From Burkholderiaceae bacterium (GTDB taxonomy: Bacteria; Pseudomonadota; Gammaproteobacteria; Burkholderiales; Burkholderiaceae_C): 64,000 nucleotides of DNA. This document shows positions 5,027-20,137 of this stretch, one piece after another. The translations under genes and the position numbers were made by a program. The stretch lies in contig JAMLIT010000012.1 in assembly GCA_023954035.1 (NCBI GenBank), positions 1 to 64,000 on the forward strand, written 5' to 3'. The first letter of the stretch is position 1. Every line of letters begins with the position of its first letter. Under the pieces are notes generated by a model that did not search any database, was not told the DNA's origin, and saw only the letters and a program-made list of their open reading frames with translations.

Positions 5027-5974
5027 TTATCCGAGCCGCAGGACCTGCATGCCGGGCAAGGCTGGGGGCGGCGGGAACTCTTCGGCGTCAAAAGCCTTGT
5101 CGCCGTTCTCGTCCGACACGCCCGTGGCGACGGTGCTCTGGAAATCGTACAGATTGGCGTCCAGCAAATGGCTGGGCACCACATTCTGCAAGGCGTTGAA
5201 CATGTTCTCGACGCGGCCCGGAAAGCGCTTTTCCCAGTCGCGCAGCATCTCACCGACCTGCTTGCGCTGCAGGTTTTCCTGGCTGCCGCAGAGGTTGCAG
5301 GGAATGATGGGGAAGTGGCGCTGCGCAGCCCACCGCGCCGTGTCTTTCTCCGTCACGAAGGCCAGCGGGCGGATCACCACATGCTTGCCGTCGTCGCTGA
5401 CCAGCTTGGGCGGCATGCTTTTGAGCTTGCCGCCAAAGAACATGTTGAGCAGCAACGTCTGCAGGATGTCATCGCGGTGGTGGCCGAGCGCTATTTTGGT
5501 GGCGCCCAGCTCGTCCGCTACCCGGTAAAGGATGCCGCGGCGCAGCCGGCTGCACAGGCTGCAGGTGGTCTTGCCCTCGGGGATCAGGCGCTTGACGATG
5601 CTGTAGGTGTCTTCGTTTTCGATGTGAAACGGCACGCCCGTGCTGGCCAGGTATTGCGGCAAGACATGCTCGGGGAAGCCCGGTTGTTTCTGGTCGAGGT
5701 TGACCGCCACCAGGTCGAAGTGGATGGGCGCGCGCGCCTTGAGCTTGATGAGGATGTCGAGCAGGGCGTAGCTGTCCTTGCCGCCTGACATGCAGACCAT
5801 GACCTTGTCGCCTTCCTCAATCATGTTGTAGTGCACGATGGCCTTGCCCACCTCGCGGCATAAACGCTTCTCCAGCTTGTGCGCCTCGCGCTCGATCTTG
5901 AAGTCGCGGCCGGGGGGCGCCGGGGCGGGCCCGGCGGGAGTGAAGGTGGTCGAGTCTTCTGCCCAGGTATTCAT
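5027..5974 (-). CDS. ttcA: tRNA 2-thiocytidine(32) synthetase TtcA
   Basis: Iron-sulfur enzyme that thiolates cytidine 32 in tRNA. The ATP PP-loop SGGKDS is at residues 63-68. Cluster-binding cysteines are visible in [12 protein letters not shown] and IPCNLCGSQ, and [15 protein letters not shown] is a family hallmark. 315 residues from ATG 5974. A GTG five codons upstream (5989) is possible, but GGTGA at the folB stop is well placed for the ATG. The gene is translationally coupled to the upstream folB in a seven-gene minus-strand operon. Confidence 0.95.
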
Positions 5975-11681: not shown

Positions 11682-12161
11682 TCAGCTGCGCAACAGCACG
11701 CGGTCCAGCGAAAGGGCGCCGCCGCCGCGCCCCACCAGATACAGCATGAGGCCCGCCCACGACAGGTGCGTGGGCCAGGCGTCGGGGTAGACGAAGAGCT
11801 GGATCACCGCCGTCATCCCGAGCAGCGCGAGTGCAGAGAACCGCGTGAACAGGCCAAGCACCAGCAGCACGGCGAACAAATGCTCGGAACCTGTCGCGAT
11901 CTGCGCCGCCCATTCGGGCGCAAGCACGGGCAGCTTGTATTCCTCGCGAAACAGCAGGTAGGTGCTGTCCTTGATGTCGAACCAGCCGTCGACCTTGGTG
12001 CGCGCCGACATCCAGAAGATGCTGGCAACGGCGAAGCGATTTGTCAGCGCCAGCAGGCTGTGCGGCGTGGCAGTTTCCAGCCCGGCGCGCCAGCGCGGCA
12101 AGCGCGCGGCACCCGTGGGCGTGGTCTGGGCGGTCGCCGAATTGCTGGAAAGTCTGGTCAT
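11682..12161 (-). CDS. DoxX family membrane protein, last gene of the bufferin operon
   Basis: 159-residue DoxX-like membrane protein with about four hydrophobic helices. Signature pieces are [22 protein letters not shown] near the N-terminus, [23 protein letters not shown] and [20 protein letters not shown]. DoxX proteins are frequent partners in bufferin/DUF2282 operons and may handle redox steps during maturation, but the role is unproven. It overlaps the bufC stop by 4 bases (ATGA), so it is translationally coupled to it. Confidence 0.86.
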
Positions 12162-12934
12162 GGGGTCTCCTTGGGTTCTGGTTCTGCAAGCGCGCCTGCG
12201 CCCAGCAGCAGGGCTATCAAGGTGGCGATGTCGGCGGGCGCCTCTGCGCCGCATTCCACGGCCGCTTGCGCTGCTTGCGTCAGGGTCTTGTGGGCGGCGC
12301 AGGCATCGAGAAACGCTACCCCGGCGCGCGGCAACGGGCACCATTGAACGCCGTCCTCTGGCCGGGTGATGAGGGCGCCCTGGGGCTCCCAGGGCAGCGC
12401 CTCGTCCATGGCCAGCCCTTCACGGTGGCGCTGCCAAATCGAATAGGCTGGGTGCGCATCGGACCACAGCCAGCGGGCGGCGGGGTGGGGCGGCAGGAGG
12501 GCAGCGCCCAGTGCCTCGGGCGCCTGGATGGTCATCCAGTTCGCGGCCAGTGGTGGCGCGTCGGGTGCCAGGTGCGCTTCGGTCCAGGCGCGGTCCAGTC
12601 GGGCAACGTCGCCCAGCCAGGGCAGTTCGGCGGCAGGCGCAAAGTTGTCCAGAAACGCAGGAAAGCCTGCGCCATAGCGCATCAACAGGCCGTCGGCAGG
12701 CGGTTGCTGCGCCAGGTAGCGTTGTGCAGCGCCGTGGAACCAATCCTTGCCTACCAGTTGTTCGATGGTGGGGTAGTTGGCGCGCAGCGCATCGACAGCG
12801 GCTTTGCATCCGCTGTTGCGGTAGACGGCAAAGCCGGGTTGCGCAGCGAGCGCGTCCATCCAGGCGGGCGCAGCGCCGACACCGCCAGGCTGTAGCGCCG
12901 CGACAAAACCGTCCAGAAATGCCGCTAATTGCAT
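12158..12934 (-). CDS. bufC: Bufferin maturation partner (DUF2063 / BufC-like)
   Basis: 258-residue protein of the DUF2063 family, the precursor-binding partner of MNIO (DUF692) enzymes. Motifs: [14 protein letters not shown] at the start, [28 protein letters not shown] (the YRN...LxxxYP signature) and [15 protein letters not shown] 12934 is preceded by GGGAGTTGG and overlaps the end of bufB by 10 bases, implying coupled translation. Cytoplasmic; expected to deliver the BufA core to BufB. Confidence 0.88.
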
Positions 12935-13797
12935 GGCGCCAACTCCCTCTGCATGCACATCAACGCGGTGTGAGCGCGTGCGCGTTCGGCCAACAACGCG
13001 ACCAGCGGCGGGAGTTCAGCGTCGCGCTCTATCAAGGTGGGCACCGGGCCGGTACGCGCCAATACGCGCTGGTACAAATTCCACACGGCCTCGGACACTG
13101 GGGCGTCATGGCTGTCGATGAGCAGCGCCTGGCCATGCACAGGGTCTTCGTGGTGGCCCGCAAGATGCAGCTCGACCACGGCGTGCCAGGGGAAGGCGGC
13201 CAGATAGTTGTTCAGGTAGGCAACCAGGCCTGAAGTGTCTGCACTGCGCAGGTTGCGGGCGCTCACATACACGTTGTTCACGTCGAGCAGCAATTGGCAG
13301 CCGGTGCGGCGCACCAGCTCGGCAAAAAATTCGGGCTCGCTGTAATCGTGATCAGCCAGTCGCACATAGTGGCTTGGGTTTTCCAGCGCTATCGGGCGTC
13401 TCAAAGCGTCTTGCGTGCGTGCGACGTTGTCTGCCACGCGCAGCAAGGCTTCGTGGGTGCGGGGGAAGGGCAGCAAATCGGGCTGGTAAACGCCGCGCCA
13501 ATGCGACCAGGCCAAGTGCTCGGAGACCAGCGCGGGCGCCAGGCGTTGCACCAGCCCTGCCAGGCGCGCCAGGTGTTGTGCGTCGGGCGGCGCATCGGCC
13601 GCGAGCGACAGCGACACGCCGTGCAGCGACAGCGGGTGGCGACTGCGGATGGCTTCAAGCCAGGCGATGCGCGGTCCGCCGCATTCCAGGTAGTTTTCAG
13701 GGTGCACTTCCCACCACAGGCCGGTGTCCTGGCAAGCCAGTGCGTCTGCATAGTGCTCAGGTTTGAGGCCCAAGCCTGCGGTCAATGGCTGATGCAT
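12925..13797 (-). CDS. bufB: Multinuclear non-heme iron oxidase, DUF692/MNIO (BufB-like)
   Basis: 290-residue TIM-barrel enzyme of the MNIO family, which oxidatively modifies cysteines of RiPP precursors using two or three iron ions. Likely metal ligands are in [39 protein letters not shown] and [12 protein letters not shown]. In characterised bufferins the enzyme converts core cysteines into thiooxazole groups that bind copper; this is known of the family, not shown here. A 262-base gap holding a family-B repeat separates it from bufA, while it overlaps bufC. Confidence 0.92.
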
Positions 13798-13874
13798 GGT
13801 GCACTCCAGTTCAATATCGATGACTCCGTTGCGCTTTGCGTCGCCAACAACGCAGGAGACCGGCGCGGTTCAGG

Positions 13875-14057
13875 CCAGGGCGCCCGCACAAGGGCCGCCC
13901 CGCCGCGCCGGGAGCGTCCCCCTGCCCGCCGCGCGCAGCGCTGCGAGAGCGGGGGCTGAGGGGCGCGGCTCCAAGCCTGCCTGCGCAGGCTTGGACGTCC
14001 CCGAAGGGCTGCCGCCTGTGGCGGCTGCACGGGGGAGCGAAGCGACAAAGGGGGGTG
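13875..14057 (-). repeat. Family-B repeat inserted between bufA and bufB
   Basis: On the minus strand it begins just after the bufA stop with ACACCCCCC and ends with the GGCGGGGCGGCCCTTGTGC block shared with other copies. It contains a perfect 10-base stem, CCAAGCCTGC at 13971-13980 and GCAGGCTTGG at 13985-13994, with a CTGC loop. It occupies most of the 262-base bufA-bufB gap. It could reduce read-through into bufB or protect the bufA message. Confidence 0.72.
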
Positions 14058-14059
14058 TT

Positions 14060-14353
14060 TCACTTCATCGCTTCGAGCGTGCCCATGCCTTTGGGCGTCT
14101 TGATGGTGGTGCAGGTGCCGGCTGGAACATATTTCCAGGCGTTGCCCTGGTAGTCGACCTTGGAGGTGCCGGCGCAGGTGGTGCCGGGGCCTGCGGCGCA
14201 GTCGTTCTTGCCAGCCATGGAGACGCCGTAGCACTTTTCCATTTTGGGTTTGGCCATGTCCGATTGCATACCGTCGCCTTTTGCCTGGGCTGTTGCAGCG
14301 CCGGAAACAAGGGCCAGGGCGAGGGCAGCGACGGTGAAGGATGGTGTGTTCAT
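14060..14353 (-). CDS. bufA: Bufferin precursor peptide, DUF2282 (BufA1-like)
   Basis: 97-residue precursor: a Sec-type signal ([24 protein letters not shown]) followed by a core with four cysteines at residues 41, 52, 60 and 81, in [25 protein letters not shown] and PAGTC. This four-Cys pattern is the DUF2282 hallmark. After modification by BufB, such peptides are exported to the periplasm and bind copper. The gene opens the operon bufA-bufB-bufC-DoxX. ATG 14353 gives a standard signal peptide. An ECF-type promoter lies 85-110 bases upstream. The metal bound here is inferred from relatives. Confidence 0.92.
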
Positions 14354-14437
14354 TTGAAAGTCTCCAGTGGGTAAAAGAAGGAACGAAAAGACCTGCCTTG
14401 AATGCCATGCAGTCGCGCCGGCTGGTCTGAGGTGTAA

Positions 14438-14463
14438 TTCGCAGCGTGGCAGGATGCGGTTAC
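14438..14463 (-). promoter_or_regulatory. ECF sigma promoter of the bufferin operon
   Basis: Read on the minus strand: GTAACC (14463-14458), exactly 16 bases, then CGAA (14441-14438). This matches the GTAACC-N16-CGAA pattern I recall for SigF-dependent promoters in Caulobacter. Predicted transcription would start near 14431, leaving a leader of about 78 bases before bufA. Confidence 0.8.
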
Positions 14464-14504
14464 AGCGTGGGCCTTCTTTTTCCAGTTTTTCTTTTTTCAC
14501 GCAT

Positions 14505-14530
14505 GTAACCCAGCCGCTTCGATCAACGAA
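14505..14530 (+). promoter_or_regulatory. ECF sigma promoter of the sigma/anti-sigma operon
   Basis: GTAACC at 14505-14510, 16 bases, then CGAA at 14527-14530, identical in motif and spacing to the divergent bufA promoter. The -10-like element ends 17 bases before the sigma start codon, so the transcript would have a very short leader. It implies autoregulation by the adjacent ECF factor. Confidence 0.8.
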
Positions 14531-14547
14531 TACCTCCCAAGACCACC

Positions 14548-15090
14548 ATGGAAATCGAAGAGCGTTTGCGCACGCTGCTGCTGCAAGGCCTGGCCGCAGA
14601 TGCGCAGGCTTACGAACGCTTTCTTTCGGTGCTGAGTTCCCACCTGCGTGCGTTCCTGCGCCGCAGGCTCGCCCAGTGGCCCGACGAAGTGGAGGATTTG
14701 GTGCAGGAAACTTTGCTCGCGGTGCACAACCAGCGCCACACCTATCGCGCCGACATGCCGGTCACGGCCTGGGCGCACGCGATTGCGCGCTACAAGCTGG
14801 TGGATTGGTTTCGTGCCCACGCGGTGCGTGGTGCGCGCACAGTGCCGCTGGACAGCACGGAGGAATTGTTTTCCATGCAGGATGCCGATGCTGCACAGGC
14901 GCGGCGCGACCTGCGGGTGCTGCTTGCGAGCCTGCCCGACAAGCAGCGCCTGCCCATTGAGCACGTCAAGCTGGAGGGCCGGTCCGTGGTCGAGACAGCG
15001 CAGCTCACCGGGTTGTCGGAATCCGCGGTGAAGGTGGGCGTGCACCGTGGGCTCAAGGCGCTCGCGGCACGCATCAGAGGAGCGACATGA
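14548..15090 (+). CDS. ECF RNA polymerase sigma factor (SigF-like)
   Basis: 180-residue sigma-70 family ECF factor. Region 2 includes [23 protein letters not shown] and [17 protein letters not shown]; region 4 is the [26 protein letters not shown]. It overlaps the downstream NrsF-type anti-sigma gene by 4 bases. Its position opposite a bufferin operon and the paired promoters match the SigF-NrsF arrangement that controls metal-responsive bufferin genes in Caulobacter. Expected to be held at the membrane by the anti-sigma and released on metal or thiol stress. Confidence 0.93.
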
Positions 15091-15728
15091 GAACCGAGGA
15101 ATTGATTGGCTTGCTGGCCGCTGGCGCGCGGCCGGTGGAGCGCCATGGGGTAGAGCGGCGCTTTGCCGGTGCCGGTCTGCTGGGGCTCGTGGGCGCTGCG
15201 CTGCTGATGCTGCTTTTGTACGGCGTGCGTCCTGACTTGGGCCAGGCCATGCAACTGCCCATGTGGTGGCTGAAACTTGGTTTTGCTGCGGGACTGGCGG
15301 CAGCAGCGGCGCTGGCGCTGCTGCGCCTGGCGCGGCCCGGCATGCCCACGGGGTATGCCCTGGCCTGGGTGGCGCTGCCTCCGCTGATGCTGTGGGCGCT
15401 GGCCGCAGCGGCGCTGCAGGGCGCAGCGCCTGCGGAACGGGCAGCCATGGTGCTGGGCAGCACCTGGCGCAGTTGTCCATTCAATATCGCGCTTTTGTCC
15501 CTGCCCGGCTTTGCCGCGCTGATGTGGGGGCTGCGCCAGGCCGCTCCCACCCGCCTGCGCCTGGCGGGGGCCGCGGCGGGCCTGCTGGCCGGCGCGCTGG
15601 CCGCGCTGGCCTACGCGCTGCACTGCCCGGAAATGCAGGCGCCGTTCCTGGCCGTTTGGTATGTGCTGGGCATTGGCTTGCCAACCGGTGTTGGTGCGTT
15701 GCTCGGGCCGCGTCTGCTGCGCTGGTAG
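15087..15728 (+). CDS. nrsF: NrsF/DUF1109 family membrane anti-sigma factor
   Basis: 213-residue inner-membrane protein with a short cytoplasmic N-terminus ([18 protein letters not shown]) for sigma binding and about six transmembrane helices. Cys130 in [12 protein letters not shown] and Cys180 in [11 protein letters not shown] are the conserved pair expected to sense metal or oxidative stress. It starts within the sigma stop region (4-base overlap), so the two are made together. It ends 20 bases before the convergent cca gene. Confidence 0.9.
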
Positions 15729-20019: not shown

Positions 20020-20137
20020 CCCAGGCCAGTGGCCCCCGCGCAAGGGCCGCCCCGCCGCGCTGGGGGCGTCACCCTTCCGCATCGCGAAGCGATGCAAGAG
20101 AAGGGGGAAGGCGCGAAGCGCCACAGGGGGATGTTGC
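20020..20137 (-). repeat. Family-B post-stop repeat after the PaaX-family gene
   Basis: Near-complete copy. Minus strand: CATCCCCCTGTGGCGCTTCGCGCC, TTCCCCCTTCTC, GCATCGCTTCGCGATGC, then CAGCGCGGCGGGGCGGCCC and TTGCGCGGGGGCCACTGG. The palindrome around GCATCGC/GCGATGC and the pairing CCCCCTTCTC/GAGAAGGGGG give a branched hairpin. It starts about 8 bases past the regulator's stop. Confidence 0.8.

Follow-up and report, generated by a model that had tools for sequence, protein, structure and literature searches.

Background

In Caulobacter crescentus, both sigF-nrsF and CC3254-CC3257 are transcribed from the SigF promoter GTAACC-N16-CGAA (PMC3511200). This system resembles the locus described here in the motif, in the gene content of both operons and in an NrsF protein with two conserved cysteines (C131/C181); it differs in having a second bufferin-type operon, CC2907-2905, and in that sigF is not strongly autoregulated (PMC3511200). 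In Brucella melitensis, the locus bcrS-abcS/bcrXQP likewise combines an ECF16 sigma factor and an NrsF-family anti-sigma factor with the consensus on both promoters; 5'-RACE located the promoters of both the sigma and the target operon, and the sigma factor regulates its own operon (PMC8315932). Its cargo is different, being MsrQP-like with an MXKDX protein, as is its signal, hypochlorous acid (PMC8315932).

The same genes in the same divergent layout are found in another betaproteobacterium, C. metallidurans, as gigPABT/rpoQ-rsqA (PMC10304878, PMC7563307). Expression of gig is induced by copper and gold (PMC10304878), and copper raises the whole gig cluster together with rpoQ (PMC7563307). 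Control of gig by RpoQ is called unproven in PMC10304878, where deletion of rpoQ raised gig expression and no gig promoter is reported as identified, while PMC7563307 states that such control exists. The latter also cites work in which none of ten ECF factors was needed for the metal-shock operons.

In this work, we are presenting a locus of this kind from a betaproteobacterial DNA stretch of 64,000 nucleotides (hereafter the window), together with a comparative analysis of its paired promoters in other genomes. The SigF-bufferin switch is already known and the window locus is a further case of it, which brings a comamonad into the system and links the switch with methionine-sulfoxide repair. 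The part most worth following is a helical-turn rule in the spacing of paired SigF promoters, which is apparently new: no precedent for helical phasing with divergent promoters was met in the literature searched, which omits most subscription journals.

Results

Genes and promoters of the locus

Features of the locus are collected in Table 1. The first-pass annotation of the window, made from the letters only, had described two identical GTAACC-N16-CGAA sites placed back to back on opposite strands, and both were found exactly where it had put them, with 16-bp spacers. The window contains two matches to this pattern against a chance mean of 0.02, and two or more were obtained in none of 100 shuffles. 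The divergent region does exist, counted by us as 194 bases between the start codons (14354-14547) instead of the 195 originally given. The pattern, named at that stage as the SigF motif of Caulobacter, is indeed that motif and belongs there to the same operon (PMC3511200). In addition, the ECF16 consensus (T/C)GTAAC-N17-CGAA (PMC8315932) is present upstream of the window sigma gene and of its targets. We are confident that the window holds a SigF divergon, with two SigF (ECF16) promoters pointing away from each other, and we infer that in this organism both promoters depend on SigF.

Table 1. Coordinates of the features of the SigF-bufferin locus in the window (aa, amino acids; nt, nucleotides)
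Feature	Position	Strand	Details	Basis
Putative SigF-type promoter of sigF-nrsF	14505..14530	+	-35 box GTAACC 14505-14510; CGAA 14527-14530	pattern match
Putative SigF-type promoter of the bufferin operon	14438..14463	-	-35 box GTAACC 14463-14458; CGAA 14441-14438	pattern match
Gap between both -35 boxes	14464..14504		41 bp; each box preceded at about 11-18 bp by a UP-element-like A/T tract
Inferred transcription start of sigF	14540	+	A; inferred leader 14540..14547, 8 nt, without Shine-Dalgarno
Inferred transcription start of bufA	14428	-	A; leader 75 nt with GGAGA Shine-Dalgarno-like element
sigF, ECF16-type sigma factor, SigF homologue	14548..15090	+		Pfam; NCBIfam PRK12536 above cut-off
nrsF, NrsF-family anti-sigma factor	15087..15728	+		Pfam NrsF, E 3e-75, 253 bits (cut-off 27)
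bufA, DUF2282 bufferin precursor	14060..14353	-	97 aa; four Cys (41, 52, 60, 81)	Pfam
bufA-bufB intergenic stretch	13798..14059	-	GC-rich; predicted strong hairpins (z -2.8); dispersed repeat
bufB, MNIO bufferin maturase	12925..13797	-		Pfam; NCBIfam MNIO_BufB, 344 bits (cut-off 310)
bufC, DUF2063 partner protein	12158..12958	-	listed ORF; likely ATG near 12934, by eye	Pfam
DoxX-family membrane protein	11682..12161	-	start codon by eye	Pfam

The flanking genes had been named as an ECF sigma factor with NrsF on one side and bufA-bufB-bufC-doxX on the other, and Pfam confirmed all of these families. The ECF sigma gene is followed by the DUF1109/NrsF anti-sigma gene, and the two cysteines pointed out earlier in NrsF, Cys130 and Cys180, are present and are the only ones in the protein. 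We place the window NrsF in the Pfam NrsF family and not in the NCBIfam equivalog AntiSigF_NrsF, because it scores 137 bits against the latter, for which the cut-off is 300 bits. On the bufferin side the MNIO maturase, the DUF2063 partner and DoxX that make up a Bufferin-1 cluster are all found, and BufA carries the four cysteines typical of DUF2282 bufferin precursors (PMC12452194), as well as a putative signal peptide (judged by eye). The hairpin stretch between bufA and bufB may lower the expression of the distal genes; similar copies of its dispersed repeat lie near positions 20022, 32573 and 63618 of the window. Within the 126 rows of a SigF tree, the window protein stands closest to one from a Giesbergeria MAG (Comamonadaceae), to which it is 88% identical.

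Alignment of 288 sites (144 pairs) from other loci gave a T before GTAACC in 82% and a purine (A or G 85%, C 3%) at a distance of 35 bases from the first position of the -35 box, which likely marks the transcription start; both starts in the window were placed by this conserved position. For comparison, the mapped starts of two DUF2282 genes of Caulobacter lie at -7 (CC2907) and -61 (CC3254) (PMC3511200). An A/T tract located 11-17 bp upstream of the -35 box was seen in 286 paired and also in 74 unpaired sites, so it belongs to the promoter, and the idea that it is special to paired sites is ruled out. In 27 of 34 loci compared, the site is situated 37-67 bases before the homology-based sigF start, a hint that sigF may be translated in a leaderless-like way.

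Sites elsewhere in the genome

Scanning the genome for the same pattern had been proposed as a way of defining the regulon, and it brought one promoter-like site beyond the pair and no genome-wide excess. The exact pattern occurs five times in the 76 contigs (89% complete), compared with four times for the reversed control, which rules out a regulon defined by the exact pattern alone. A lone match thus weighs little genome-wide, and it is pairing, position and conservation that bear the weight. Apart from the divergent pair, one of the five sites is intergenic, directly upstream of msrP-msrQ, and two lie within reading frames (in an LptF/LptG-family gene and at the start of an ORF without Pfam match) and were set aside. 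Both msrP and msrQ exceed their NCBIfam cut-offs, and the site before them can be regarded as a third promoter-like SigF site. In this respect the genome resembles Caulobacter, where the YedY/MsrP-like CC2748 belongs to the SigF regulon (PMC3511200).

Occurrence of the pair in other genomes

NrsF is carried by 26 of 150 genomes of the window's family. The exact divergent pair (gap 20-50) was found in 10 of the 150, all of them NrsF carriers, and in none of the 124 genomes devoid of NrsF; the reversed-pattern control gave 0. When genome_contigs was scanned, blind to proteins, for divergent pairs 22-52 bp apart, at least 120 loci were obtained. Among the matches listed (120 loci), SigF/NrsF was detected within 1.5 kb at 108 (tblastn with the window proteins) and six more adjoin bufferin genes only, which gives 114 with SigF/NrsF or bufferin genes. 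The other six of the listed loci have neither, and Pfam searches of one or two flanking ORFs at each revealed MsrA at two, YceI, a sulphur transporter and DUF1223; at the last of them, one flank was without Pfam match and the other had a weak Lactonase match. Two Variovorax loci (L093, L140) have the exact divergent pair next to the gene of a peptide methionine sulfoxide reductase (MsrA), and SigF/NrsF was not detected there within 1.5 kb. The place of the window's bufferin genes is taken by msrP-type genes in SigF divergons of Caballeronia and in some others.

The gig/rpoQ region of C. metallidurans CH34 contains an exact pair with a 34-bp gap, which provides a sequence basis for the unsettled control of gig by RpoQ. 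The transcription starts predicted for this pair fall near 1315238 and 1315133 of NC_007974.2. It differs from the window in that the rpoQ start assigned by homology is much further from its site. In that region (L074, 5306-5456) the start lies about 150 bases after the inferred transcription start, and an in-frame upstream ATG at 5330 points to either a long leader or an N-terminal extension.

Spacing of the paired promoters

Gaps between paired -35 boxes are unevenly distributed: they cluster near 24, 33-34, 43-45 and about 55 bp, in steps of approximately one helical turn. Among the matches listed from the protein-blind scan (120 loci), the peaks are at 23-24, 33-34 and 43-46, with four gaps at 27-31, one at 38-40 and none at 47-48; eight gaps at 49-52 are out of phase. 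We also searched gaps of 0-200 at 114 loci anchored on NrsF, a set that does not take in every NrsF match and leaves out six loci under the NrsF cut-off (L215-L220). The exact pair was present in 28 of these loci, and a pair with at most one mismatch per site in 40. Their gaps fall at 22-24, 32-37, 41-45, 51-56 and 63-65, with one at 59 and scattered values at 82-133; none under 22 bp was seen in these 114 loci within the range searched.

Altogether 144 distinct pairs were available, of which four with a gap above 70 bp were dropped before the phase tests. The remaining 140 gave nR2 45.1 at 10.5 bp, and favoured gaps near 23.5, 33.5, 44, 54.5 or 65 bp. The 22 gaps that came from the NrsF-anchored set and were absent from the blind set, with that of the window included, gave nR2 8.9. 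Phasing is sharper when bufferin genes are nearby (R 0.66, 101 pairs) than without them (R 0.33, 39 pairs). As to controls, the distance separating the site from bufA still shows some unevenness (nR2 3.2, n=96), and that separating it from sigF was uninformative, the distances being too narrowly spread. The window gap of 41 bp comes near the bottom of the 40-46 group (cos -0.16 at the fitted phase) and fits its class poorly, so the window itself is a weak example of the rule.

A conceivable reason for such a pattern is shared ancestry: the sites would be ordinary SigF promoters, and the steps would go back to a handful of ancestral lengths (24, 34, 44) passed down to many species. Kin do share gaps, as shown by most Erythrobacteraceae at 23-25 in the SigF tree. 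When one gap was drawn per SigF cluster among SigF-bearing loci, the signal held at 80% (n=67, p 2e-9) and 70% identity (n=28, p 5e-4) and was lost at 65% (n=18, p 0.10) and 60% (n=14, p 0.34); at 60-65%, single linkage gathers 75-78 loci into one cluster. Counting singly the 16 loci without usable SigF gave p 4e-5 at 70% (n=43), 0.008 at 65% and 0.024 at 60%, the last of which falls within the smoothed null (0.075).

Against this explanation stand simulations that keep kinship, run on the SigF tree with 123 tips (at most one duplicate). Four models, three of Ornstein-Uhlenbeck type with different settings and one with jumps, were given 2000 runs each. None of them reached the observed value; under the hardest, the jump model, the maximum was 35.3 versus 40.8 observed. 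Furthermore, there are three instances in which the gap changes by 9-11 bp between relatives whose SigF is 95-96% identical (44/53, 33/42, 45/34), and when record titles are sorted by hand, the phasing is seen both in the 44 loci with alpha titles and in the remaining 75 (phases 2.3 and 1.7, respectively). Among 58 disjoint sister pairs, 11 of the 17 differing by 4-24 bp do so near whole turns, compared with 57% expected (hand count), which favours whole-turn steps only mildly. On this evidence, we consider inheritance of a few gaps an unlikely source of the phasing.

In a follow-up, the phase was fixed beforehand and two new gap sets were drawn: set 1 from the order of G719, where 33 among 396 genomes had a gap of 20-50, and set 2 from the window's family, where 9 among 399 had a gap of 46-76. 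Twelve of the 39 fetched pairs were removed as duplicates of earlier regions. Among rows without a locus, G1146 (gap 45) was counted from its coordinates, and two gap-32 rows were omitted as duplicates, G719 being the genome of L222 and the gap of G1050 being equal to that of L134 (by eye). The resulting 28 new gaps agreed with the fixed phase (V-test p 1.3e-5, ignoring kinship). Set 2 alone (6 gaps) gave p 0.12, and set 1, which holds many kin, gave p 3e-4 when thinned to one per genus and gap (16) and p 0.012 with one per genus (9). That the window sites are SigF promoters and that the spacing rule is real, both together, seems to us quite likely.

Discussion

The first-pass annotation had read the locus as one autoregulated metal-stress switch, and by homology this interpretation appears largely right. 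It agrees with the ECF16 promoters and autoregulation of Brucella (PMC8315932) and with the copper-dependent rise of gig and rpoQ (PMC7563307); the regulon is wider than the divergent pair, since the msrPQ operon also has a site. That Caulobacter sigF is not strongly autoregulated counts against such a switch, and the rpoQ-deletion result together with the dispensable ECF factors argues against a simple one, unless another sigma factor stands in. Very probably, the stress switch of the window controls the genes of copper-buffering peptides. In the scheme that we propose, NrsF, a membrane anti-sigma factor with two cysteines, would hold SigF until metal or thiol-oxidising stress in the envelope frees it, and SigF-RNA polymerase would then fire sigF-nrsF and the bufferin operon, plus msrPQ elsewhere. 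The motif, the role of NrsF, autoregulation and induction are taken in this scheme from papers on homologues, and the sites, including the third one, the genes, their conservation, the gap clusters and the tracts from the present analysis.

If the spacing rule is true, it would constrain promoter architecture, and selection would act on the two divergent promoters of an alternative sigma factor together and not singly. Spacing of the -35 boxes held in steps of about 10 bp across Proteobacteria would keep two polymerases in a fixed rotational relation. In E. coli, docking of the alpha subunit at UP elements and with class I activators is helically phased and tolerated only at whole turns. That case concerns an activator or UP element versus one polymerase, whereas here there are two divergent promoters and one ECF sigma factor. 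The A/T tract about 14 bp upstream of each -35 box could be the docking place for the C-terminal domain of the alpha subunit. With tracts at that distance, the favoured gaps set them about 5, 15 or 26 bp apart, i.e. at half-integer turns, which would put them on opposite faces of the helix and allow both polymerases to be bound at once; the sparse gaps would set them on the same face or atop each other. We tentatively propose alpha-subunit docking, the likeliest of the readings considered, as the reason for the phasing. Equally speculative is a wider view of SigF divergons as two-polymerase machines, in which promoters in rotational register would evolve by whole turns and fire jointly, with output needing both to be occupied.

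A dimeric regulator bound at the centre of the gap could also set the phase, and in short gaps a near-palindromic AnTn tract is often found mid-gap. In the 42-46 bp class, however, each tract keeps a distance of about 14 bp to its -35 box and exceeds the centre in A/T content, and the tract of unpaired promoters marks it as a promoter element. Longer gaps are without a conserved centre, for which reason a central operator was rejected, and we regard a regulator of this type as distinctly improbable. Whole-turn steps might come from mutation itself, since A/T tracts are prone to slippage, and slippage between them could change the gap by fixed lengths. The tracts of the 43-bp class are about 15-16 bp apart, though, and their slippage should lead to gaps of about 27 bp, a sparse region, and not to 33, which makes such a bias a very doubtful source. 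That the sites are not sigma-factor promoters at all but operators for a metal regulator that works with the bufferin operon is hardly credible: bufferins do help other bacteria to grow under copper stress (PMC12452194), but the same sites occur at SigF/NrsF loci with msrP-type or other cargo, they have a purine at the expected start position, and 5'-RACE in two organisms identified the motif as a promoter (PMC3511200, PMC8315932).

Besides the SigF divergon, other arrangements of these genes were encountered. At two loci of the window's family (L061, L063) the bufferin operon is located upstream of sigF-nrsF on the same strand, with no SigF-like site found within 420 bases upstream of sigF. 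Conjugative plasmids of Pseudomonas/Stenotrophomonas contain a bufferin operon with NrsF and too little room for a sigma gene (L077, 5386-6642; L080 likewise), and the same plasmids carry a second locus, in which a lone bufA is divergent from sigma-NrsF (L077, 9722-11419; L080 likewise).
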